DNA from: Sedimentisphaerales bacterium
GTDB taxonomy: Bacteria > Planctomycetota > Phycisphaerae > Sedimentisphaerales > SM23-30
NCBI GenBank assembly: GCA_028281535.1
Contig: JANQJS010000038.1
Location: 186,001-250,000, forward strand
Length of the DNA stretch: 64,000 bases
Direction of reading: 5' to 3'
The notes under the pieces are model-generated. The model had not been told where the DNA came from, did no database searches, and worked only from the letters and a program-made list of their open reading frames with translations. Positions 17,825 through 20,850 of this stretch are shown here, piece by piece. The number at the start of each line of letters is the position of its first letter. The first letter of the stretch is position 1. The translations under genes were made by a program, and so were the position numbers.

Positions 17825-18652
17825 TTAACGTCGGTCTTCGACTTTGTATTTTTTATCCATTTCAATTTCAAACAATGAATCTTCCATGGCATGATTAATC
17901 TCGAATACTTCAACTTTATATAGAACTTTTTTCGGATTAGATTTGTTCATGACATTCAATTCATAAATCATGCTGCCATCTTCCGAAATGACTGATCGGT
18001 ACAATTTGTCGGGATCTACGGTACTTTCCAGTTGAAGTTCCAGGCATTTTTCATTTTTGTATTCGATTTCTTTGTGGCTAATAATTTTTCGTTGATTGGC
18101 CATAGAATTTGGGAATTTATCACTAACAAACATCTGGCCAAGTTCGCCAAGGATAAAATATTCGAAGCCAGCATTTCCACCTTCGCTTAAGGTTAATAAA
18201 TTGGCCTTGGTGTTTAATGTGCTACGTAATTCTGAGTTGTGTGTAATGATAATTCCATTACTGAATTCCATACGGAATGTATCTGGGCTACGCCACCACA
18301 TATCTAGGTGACTGTCGCCCGTATGAGCTCGCAAATAAACACTATTTATATTAGTGGTTTTTGTTATGGCATCAGCCCAGGCGGTCTTAGGATCTAAAAC
18401 GGTGAGAGCCTCATTGGAAGGTGAAATAAACATCACGCCAAAAGCAATTACAAATACGGCTGCCATGGAGATCGCAGCACGTATTGCAAAAGCTAATTTG
18501 GAACGCTCTTGGATATTGGACGCGACATTAACTGTTTTTTCATATTTGACGGGGGCTGCAGCTAATGTTGCCATAAAGTCATTTTTCAATGCCATATGGT
18601 TTGCGTCAAAGCGTTTGTAGTATGTGTTTAAATCATTTTCCAAATTTATCAT
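17825..18652 (-). CDS. Membrane anti-sigma-like protein with LolA/RseB-like extracytoplasmic domain
   Basis: A 275-residue protein encoded directly behind the ECF sigma factor. Residues 1-55 are cytoplasmic and could hold the sigma factor. One transmembrane helix follows (about 58-76, IRAAISMAAVFVIAFGVM). The outer 190 residues resemble the LolA/LppX/RseB lipoprotein-carrier fold (WWRSPDTFRMEFSNG; KCLELQLESTVDPDKLYRS). The ATG at 18652 overlaps the sigma gene by 20 bases and follows AAGGA, so the two are translationally coupled. RseB-like domains sense envelope lipids or proteins; here that sensor appears joined to the anti-sigma anchor. The anti-sigma role is inferred from position and topology. 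Confidence 0.68.
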   Translation of the reverse strand: MINLENDLNTYYKRFDANHMALKNDFMATLAAAPVKYEKTVNVASNIQERSKLAFAIRAAISMAAVFVIAFGVMFISPSNEALTVLDPKTAWADAITKTTNINSVYLRAHTGDSHLDMWWRSPDTFRMEFSNGIIITHNSELRSTLNTKANLLTLSEGGNAGFEYFILGELGQMFVSDKFPNSMANQRKIISHKEIEYKNEKCLELQLESTVDPDKLYRSVISEDGSMIYELNVMNKSNPKKVLYKVEVFEINHAMEDSLFEIEMDKKYKVEDRR

Positions 18653-19199
18653 CAATATTTCCTTTTCCAGCCTCTTCTTTTTCAATCATTTTTGCGACTT
18701 TATTTTTTATTTCATCGATCAAGCGATAATAACTCGATCGAGACATATCCATGATCTTCAAAGCTTCATTAATGTTCTCTGCTTGCAAATAGTGAACATT
18801 CAAAGCCATGCGCTCTTTGTCGTCTAATGAATCAATCGCTTTTTGGAGTAACTCCATGCGATACTCATCACTATCAGTCTCGTTGATCAACATCTCAGGA
18901 ACATCAAATCCTACTAATTGATGACGATCGCGAGCTTGGCCACGTCGATACTCGCGGCCAACATTTCTGGCAATACTGATTAGCCATGGACCAAATCTGT
19001 CAGGCTCTTTCAAATTTTCGAGCTTGTTGTAAGCTCTCATAAAGATGTCCTGAGCCAGGTCCTGAGCTGTATTAATATCTTTTGTACTGTCATAGCACAC
19101 AGCTCTGACCAATCTGGCATATTTGTCATACAGGTCTGCAAAAGCCTGCTGATCGCCAGAGAGCGTCCTGAGGACCAATGTTTCGTCTGGTGTTGCCAC
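18633..19199 (-). CDS. ECF-subfamily RNA polymerase sigma factor
   Basis: A 188-residue sigma-70 family protein with regions 2 and 4 only. Region 2 spans about residues 20-95 (FADLYDKYARLVRAVCY; AQDLAQDIFMRAYNKL; RFGPWLISIARNVGREYRR) and region 4 about residues 115-165 (LDDKERMALNVHYLQ; a helix-turn-helix around INEALKIMDMSRSSYYRLI). It would direct RNA polymerase to a stress regulon controlled by the membrane protein encoded next. Its own promoter is not obvious; autoregulation is usual in such pairs. Confidence 0.93.
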   Translation of the reverse strand: MATPDETLVLRTLSGDQQAFADLYDKYARLVRAVCYDSTKDINTAQDLAQDIFMRAYNKLENLKEPDRFGPWLISIARNVGREYRRGQARDRHQLVGFDVPEMLINETDSDEYRMELLQKAIDSLDDKERMALNVHYLQAENINEALKIMDMSRSSYYRLIDEIKNKVAKMIEKEEAGKGNIDDKFGK

Positions 19200-19462: not shown

Positions 19463-19492
19463 TTGACAATTTAGGCATATCAAATCTATAAT
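19463..19492 (+). promoter_or_regulatory. Strong predicted promoter of hflX
   Basis: Perfect consensus TTGACA (19463-19468), an 18-base spacer and perfect TATAAT (19487-19492). Transcription should begin near 19499. Confidence 0.7.
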
Positions 19493-19528
19493 AGCTATTG
19501 TAATGTTCGGTATTTACCGTAACCACCA

Positions 19529-19566
19529 TTAAATCAAAGATTTAAAATTTTGAGGATCTTTTACGC
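19529..19566 (+). promoter_or_regulatory. Hairpin and Shine-Dalgarno sequence at the hflX translation start
   Basis: A perfect 7-base stem (TTAAATC at 19529-19535, GATTTAA at 19539-19545, loop AAA) ends six bases before GAGGAT (19552-19557), the only plausible ribosome site. The in-frame stop TAA at 19543-19545 lies inside the stem. Between this and the conserved HflX N-terminus there is no ATG, GTG or TTG in frame. Confidence 0.5.
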
Positions 19567-20850
19567 ATCGAATTAGTTGACAAAAAAGAGGAAGAAAAAG
19601 CAGTCCTTGTTTCTGTCATTTTACCTGACAGCCAGACAGACCCGCAAGATTCACTGGATGAACTGGAATCACTGGTAGAAGCCGCTGGCGCGATAACGCT
19701 AGGTCGAACGATACAAAAACGCAGAACACCCCACCCAGCGACCTATGTTGGCACAGGCAAAGCGGAGCAAATTGCCGAAAAAGCCAAAGCGTTTGAAGCA
19801 AATGTCATTATCTTTGACAATGATCTTTCCCCTGCACAAATTCGAGATTTGGAAAAAATCACAGAATGCAAAGTTATTGATCGTAGTATTTTGATATTAG
19901 ATATATTTGCCGCTCGTGCTCGGACCGCAGAAGCAAAATTACAGGTTGAATTGGCTCAAATGCAATATACCTACCCGCGTCTGACGCGCATGTGGTCTCA
20001 CCTGGATACCGTTGCTGGTAGCAGTGGTGCAATTGGAACACGTGGTCCCGGCGAAAAACAGTTGGAAACAGATCGGCGATTAGTGCAAAAGCGTGTTTCT
20101 ATCCTAAAAGGGCGCATTGATAAGGTTGATAAGAGAAAAGAACGCCTGGCTAGTTCACGTAAACATTTTACGGTTAGTTTGGTCGGGTATACAAATGCAG
20201 GTAAAAGCACCCTGCTTAATGCTTTGACAAGTACAGAAACATTATCTGCAAATATGTTATTTGCAACACTCGATACCAAAACCTCGATGTGGAAATTGGA
20301 GAAAAATCACGATGTACTCTTAAGTGATACTGTAGGGTTTGTACGTGATCTGCCCCACCATTTGGTTGCTTCCTTCAGGGCAACTCTAGAAGAAGCGATT
20401 CATGCCAATTTGCTATTGCATGTTGTTGATACATCACACCATCAAGTTGAGTTGCAAATCGAAGCTGTTAATAAAGTACTGGAGGAGATTGGGTGCAAAG
20501 ATAAGGATCAACTCGTTGTGTTCAATAAAGCTGATCGAGCAGAATCGAAATCTCGACAATCGCTATTTGAAACACTCTATCCTGATTCTATTTTTGTTTC
20601 GGCAAAGTCAGGGTTAGGGCTCGATAAATTAACCCAAGCGGTAAAAGATAAATTCACGGGTGAACGAGTTTGTGTTCGGATCGATTATCCTCAGGCAAAT
20701 GGTCGCATACCAAACTTTGTTCGAGCTAATGGCGACATTGTTTCTGAAGTGTATGAGGATTCCCGTGTTATCCTGGAAGCCTATCTAGGCAAACAACAGA
20801 TTCCTGATCTGGTGAAATTACAACCGACATCCTATGAAGTGATTTCGTAA
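19567..20850 (+). CDS. hflX: GTPase HflX (ribosome-splitting/rescue factor) with non-canonical start codon
   Basis: Ribosome-associated GTPase that splits stalled or heat-damaged 70S ribosomes. The conserved HflX N-domain is encoded from about 19594 (AVLVSVILPD; TYVGTGKAEQIAEKA; LSPAQIRDLE), then the GPGEKQLETDRR helix, G1 GYTNAGKST, G3 DTVGFVRDLP and G4 NKAD. The first TTG, at 19849, would delete this whole domain. The frame is open only from 19546, and no ATG, GTG or TTG occurs before 19849. ATC at 19567, 11 bases after GAGG, is my best start and gives 427 residues (E. coli HflX has 426); TTA at 19561 is another option. A base error near the start is the main alternative. Confidence 0.88.
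   Translation: MELVDKKEEEKAVLVSVILPDSQTDPQDSLDELESLVEAAGAITLGRTIQKRRTPHPATYVGTGKAEQIAEKAKAFEANVIIFDNDLSPAQIRDLEKITECKVIDRSILILDIFAARARTAEAKLQVELAQMQYTYPRLTRMWSHLDTVAGSSGAIGTRGPGEKQLETDRRLVQKRVSILKGRIDKVDKRKERLASSRKHFTVSLVGYTNAGKSTLLNALTSTETLSANMLFATLDTKTSMWKLEKNHDVLLSDTVGFVRDLPHHLVASFRATLEEAIHANLLLHVVDTSHHQVELQIEAVNKVLEEIGCKDKDQLVVFNKADRAESKSRQSLFETLYPDSIFVSAKSGLGLDKLTQAVKDKFTGERVCVRIDYPQANGRIPNFVRANGDIVSEVYEDSRVILEAYLGKQQIPDLVKLQPTSYEVIS

Follow-up and report, generated by a model that had tools for sequence, protein, structure and literature searches.

To our knowledge, the established bacterial genes with ATC, CTG or another non-canonical start codon are very few; the textbook IF3-controlled gene is infC, which encodes initiation factor IF3. 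The infC start is ATT in Escherichia coli and ATC in Streptomyces, by which infC regulates itself; IF3 represses the ATT, ATC and GTC starts of infC and of sigR, a Streptomyces stress gene held low by a non-canonical start that is GTC in 32/34 across the genus (PMC5472188, in part). In Staphylococcus aureus, infC uses AUA, AUA and AUU starts yield ∼10% of the AUG level, and ccpN and cvfC1 have conserved weak AUA/AUU starts with ∼10% initiation and an extended Shine-Dalgarno sequence (PMC13009471, in part). Under stress, HflX splits 70S ribosomes, and IF3 stops free 30S subunits from rejoining (PMC9067457, in part). Control at the 5′ end of hflX has been described in Bacillales as a structured leader with the upstream ORF uORFC-6-1 (PMC8632094, in part) and in Listeria as transcription attenuation of hflXr (PMC9067457, in part). 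In the literature searched, judged by titles, the starts of abstracts and passages, we found no description of a weak or non-canonical hflX start.

Here we analyzed a 64,000-nucleotide stretch of a Sedimentisphaerales genome (the window), which carries an hflX gene with an apparent start of this kind. By family profile the product is an HflX GTPase, with ribosome splitting as its predicted activity: the 434-aa open frame (19546-20850, forward strand) matches NCBIfam TIGR03156 from residue 18 with 445.5 bits against a curated cut-off of 216.75, the N-terminal, middle and GTPase domains (PF13167, PF16360 and PF01926) are all complete, and the named matches of the protein come from Sedimentisphaerales, Phycisphaerae and other Planctomycetota. 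Like infC, this is a translation-machinery gene that appears to start at a non-canonical ATH codon behind a Shine-Dalgarno sequence (Table 1). Whereas the infC start is repressed by the gene's own product, control of hflX would fall to another protein, and most relatives start hflX at TTG rather than ATH. The likeness to sigR lies in a stress gene with a non-canonical start, yet sigR encodes a different protein and its case is proven by mutation and IF3 dosage (PMC5472188, in part), whereas hflX is known here from sequence alone. The weak start also recalls ccpN and cvfC1, although the Shine-Dalgarno sequence of hflX is only GAGG. E. coli hflX belongs to the hfq operon, where heat-shock promoters occur (PMC9067457, in part), whereas the gene here looks monocistronic with its own promoter. 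Unlike in Bacillales and Listeria, no Rfam leader element matches upstream of hflX up to an E-value of 1.

Table 1. Features of the hflX locus, in window coordinates
Feature	Position	Strand	Remarks
Sigma-70-type promoter TTGACA-18-TATAAT	19463..19492	+	12/12 consensus bases; transcript start at ∼19499 predicted from spacing
Possible 9-codon upstream ORF MFGIYRNHH	19503..19532	+	Frame differs from that of hflX; lacks an obvious ribosome-binding site
7-bp hairpin TTAAATC-AAA-GATTTAA	19529..19545	+	Weight doubtful
Shine-Dalgarno GAGG(ATC)	19552..19558	+	11 nt from the end of GAGG to ATC
Proposed start codon ATC, then GAA	19567..19569	+	Near-cognate codon; spacing; second codon
hflX coding sequence, 427 aa plus stop	19567..20850	+	Matches TIGR03156 and the Pfam domains (N, middle, GTPase); family members are 58-64% identical
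First canonical start codon TTG	19849..19851	+	Inside the N-domain, not the start

A first-pass annotation of the window had claimed that the hflX frame is closed just upstream, that no ATG, GTG or TTG precedes position 19849, that the N-domain is encoded ahead of that codon and that translation appears to start at a non-canonical one. Direct reading bears this out: an in-frame TAA stands at 19543-19545, zero canonical starts occur before 19849, and the Pfam N-domain (GTP-bdg_N, residues 35-122) is encoded from about 19600. Further upstream, from the TAA back to the next in-frame stop at 19501, there is no in-frame start either. As background we scored stop-to-stop frames by codon usage in 464 kb, made up of 400 kb from the source genome plus the window. 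Across the 224 gene-like ORFs, the first canonical start follows the stop after a median of 4 codons (99th percentile 38); in hflX it follows after 101, and no other ORF reaches 50. ATG, GTG and TTG make up 5.3% of coding codons, and the probability of 101 coding codons without any is ∼0.004. The hflX gene lacks a normal start codon, and this is more than chance. The runner-up with 42 codons (L181) is an ordinary gene whose AA_kinase domain begins at residue 67, past its first canonical codon. We reject a genome-wide loss of start fidelity, as hflX alone stands out among these ORFs (1 of 224).

From the sequence context, the most likely start is ATC 19567. No other codon ahead of the conserved A[IVL]LV motif is a single base off ATG. 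GAGG forms the best anti-Shine-Dalgarno duplex in the leader (−5.9 kcal/mol). Its distance from GAGG is like that in relatives: a GGAGG, GAGG or GGAG motif is in range in 99 of the 121 relatives' rows surveyed (none in 22), and the motif lies 10-12 nt from the start in 79 of the 99. The second codon GAA also fits, with GAA or GAG following the relatives' TTG in 104 of 123 rows. The first-pass proposals of GAGGAT as ribosome-binding site and of ATC as start thus gain support, while its other candidate, TTA 19561, is not supported, its spacing of 5 nt being matched by 0 of 99 relatives. The ATC precedes the A[IVL]LV motif by 11 codons versus 14 for the relatives' TTG; this distance varies within the window's family too (10 codons in L007 and L009, 12 in L008). 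No clear GGAGG is seen in the family members G002, G008 and G007, so it is with relatives further away that the Shine-Dalgarno sequence agrees. An alignment of the leader DNA with four family members has a mean column identity of 50%, too weak to place the codon homologous to the relatives' TTG.

To describe hflX starts across the order, we searched 161 genomes and read the 5′ end of the gene in 127 (125 anchored by script, 2 by eye). Left out were L031 and L038 as duplicates (same 5′ DNA as L005 and L030), L167, which repeats the window, L024, L040 and L041 without a 5′ end, and G028, G077, G109 and G132, where the 5′ part was not included. In 116 of the 127 genomes a TTG precedes the motif by exactly 14 codons, and six others have GTG (4) or ATG (2) at the same position; one genome each has a shifted TTG (12 codons before the motif) or ATG (10 codons), and three have no canonical start. 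In 65 of the 115 script-anchored TTG loci no canonical codon other than this TTG is available, and in 18 of the 115 an ATG start is possible, with an in-frame ATG 6 to 22 codons before the motif. A count free of start choice finds the span from the stop to the motif devoid of ATG in 103 of 127 order genomes. The same holds for 7 of 10 further titled loci of Planctomycetota, for 21 of 28 phylum loci and, in other phyla, for 7 of 8 loci. The tests for canonical starts and for ATG lost one locus each from the 29 of the phylum and the 30 of infC, and L280 was excluded as a broken-looking gene. This last locus, on the Pasteurella multocida plasmid NZ_CP020349, is an hflX-like stretch annotated as two short proteins and looks decayed. 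Outside the phylum, hflX of E. coli K-12 (NC_000913), Klebsiella and Proteus likewise starts at the sub-optimal TTG, that of Acinetobacter at GTG and that of Phocaeicola at ATG. With TTG in 116 of 127 order genomes and in E. coli, these sequences indicate that hflX has conserved a weak start and that the ATC goes one step further and is no isolated case.

Two other features of the relatives' genes were recorded. A TAG or TAA directly precedes the hflX TTG in 46 of 115 order loci (e.g. L013, L020 and L027), which looks high for a single codon; shared ancestry accounts for part of it, and it raises the question of coupling to a short upstream frame. In addition, and counting against the reading proposed below, there is no sign of selection against internal ATG, GTG and TTG codons, which are not depleted in the N-domain beyond its amino-acid composition: TTG accounts for 78 of 523 leucine codons in the first 90 codons versus 287 of 2079 in the rest, and GTG for 123 of 480 versus 389 of 1453 valine codons.

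As controls we read infC, obg and lepA by eye in 30 of the order genomes, with a 5′ end present in 25 of 27 loci each for obg and lepA. Starts are ATG (22), GTG (2) and TTG (1) in obg and ATG (24) and TTG (1) in lepA. In the same 30 genomes, TTG starts 24 of 30 hflX genes but 2 of 50 when obg and lepA are pooled (Fisher 1e-12, with genomes that are not independent). The single obg TTG belongs to the source genome (L238, G000:C61), where 22 of 25 genomes use ATG. For infC, the start is ATA, ATC or ATT in 27 of 30 genomes (in two of these, a TTG lies two codons further upstream) and GTG in 3; the window's family has ATA or ATC, the other families of the order mostly ATC or ATT, and the three GTG genomes belong to family f7. 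A canonical start is absent in 24 of 29 infC, 0 of 25 obg, 0 of 25 lepA and 3 of 127 hflX loci; the test therefore finds the textbook case and is silent on ordinary genes. The infC gene of the source genome (L194, G000:C37) itself appears to start outside the canonical codons, at ATA behind GGAAGGTGG. The likeness to infC drawn in the first-pass annotation is supported.

We propose that hflX is translated from the ATC by ordinary initiator tRNA, positioned by the GAGG Shine-Dalgarno sequence, and that its start is weak by selection, with the sub-optimal TTG, occasionally GTG, kept across the order and beyond. Some lineages of the window's family would have moved on to ATC and CTG, which belong to the infC class of codons that IF3 rejects most strongly. 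Plentiful IF3 would then mean little HflX, and free IF3 in short supply relative to 30S subunits would mean more, such that the stress splitting factor would rise when the other subunit-keeping factor is limiting. The sensitivity to initiation factors suggested in the first-pass annotation is made plausible by infC and sigR. The sequences show the missing canonical start, the conserved TTG, its specificity to this gene and the spacing, and the position of the start is well supported; use of the ATC and control by IF3 are what we infer. We put the joint reading of an ATC start, weakness by selection and IF3-dependent HflX supply at a probability of about 60%.

The alternative that survives best is that the weak start merely sets a low, constant HflX level, with TTG drifting to ATC or CTG in a neutral or slightly expression-lowering way and with no link to IF3. 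TTG, the start of most relatives, is only mildly IF3-sensitive and weakly discriminated by the factor, so its conservation may just mean low expression. E. coli can also do without HflX when it grows normally (PMC9067457, in part), and selection on start codons is generally weak (PMC5622118, in part). Neutral drift should, however, often restore ATG, which was seen in only 3 of the 127 order genomes (one of them shifted) though it is the norm in obg and lepA. We regard a constant low level as a real but minority prospect, at perhaps one chance in four.

The three hflX loci without a canonical start all fall in the window's family f1, where they make up 3 of the 10 genomes with a 5′ end. Apart from the window, these are L006, with GGAGG, 8 nt and an apparent CTG start followed by GTA GTA GAA AAA, and L007, with an apparent CTG GAG GGT start 10 codons before the motif. 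The family members compared, all from outside the genus of the source genome, start hflX at TTG, ATG or apparently CTG. In a tree of four concatenated proteins, with the start region excluded, the source genome branches off first within the family (support 85), the L007 genome is nested beside ATG and TTG genomes, and the L006 genome has no settled place. By eye, this suggests three separate losses of the canonical start, with fewer possible. Across 36 genome groups, only 1 of 2,468 ancestral UUG starts became CUG (PMC5622118, in part); against such rarity the start changes of the family look unusual, although the large distances between its genomes call for caution.

These family genomes also bear on whether the ATC reflects an assembly or sequencing error, the true codon being ATG at 19567 or a nearby TTG, e.g. 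at 19549. One base separates ATC from ATG and TTT from TTG, and TTT GAG GAT (19549) resembles the relatives' TTG GAG AAT, its peptide FEDLL... being alignable with their LED/LEN starts. As an alternative homology, this triplet may mark the ancestral start, although TTT is no credible present one. Because two further family genomes lack a canonical start, a base error becomes less likely; moreover, the 464 kb hold no other such outlier, and the 4.44-Mb assembly is 99.4% complete in 67 contigs. An error is accordingly improbable, on the order of one in ten.

Upstream of the start, the consensus promoter described in the first-pass annotation is present with every consensus base, predicting a leader of ∼67 nt. 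The hairpin that it placed at the initiation zone exists, but a special role for it is not supported: the leader folds no more stably than shuffled versions (z = +0.33) and 3.7% of shuffled leaders contain a perfect stem of at least 7 bp, which puts it near chance, and we reject it as a structural switch. The upstream ORF is probably chance. In another family member, L063 (G007), TATAAT ends ∼7 nt before the hflX TTG and the mRNA may be leaderless. The divergent gene next to hflX encodes an ECF sigma factor (18633-19199, reverse strand) and overlaps a downstream gene (17825-18685, reverse strand) that has no Pfam or NCBIfam match and may encode its anti-sigma partner.

Two starts in other frames exist in this region, TTG 19550 and ATG 19503, from which HflX might be reached by frameshifting or stop read-through. 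We reject both routes as very improbable: the short frames end at 19576 and 19532 without a convincing slippery site (by eye), and with no in-frame start between the stop at 19501 and the TAA there is nothing for read-through to extend. Translation from TTG 19849, the first canonical in-frame codon, would leave HflX without most of its N-domain and is the least credible of all, given that this domain is complete, that the region upstream has a high coding score and that the N-terminal 144 residues are 66-71% identical in four family members, above the 58-64% of the whole protein.

Gene callers miss or truncate genes with non-canonical starts, and annotation from the first canonical codon would here lose the whole HflX N-domain. 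A broader proposal, which we hold only tentatively and consider rather unlikely, is that hflX has kept a weak start, TTG or GTG, broadly among bacteria (Planctomycetota, E. coli and others) because start discrimination by IF3 couples the supply of the stress splitting factor to that of the subunit anti-association factor, a coupling that would have been repeatedly sharpened in the window's family through ATC and CTG. A regulatory role of the conserved weak start would mean that ribosome splitting is wired together with initiation fidelity.
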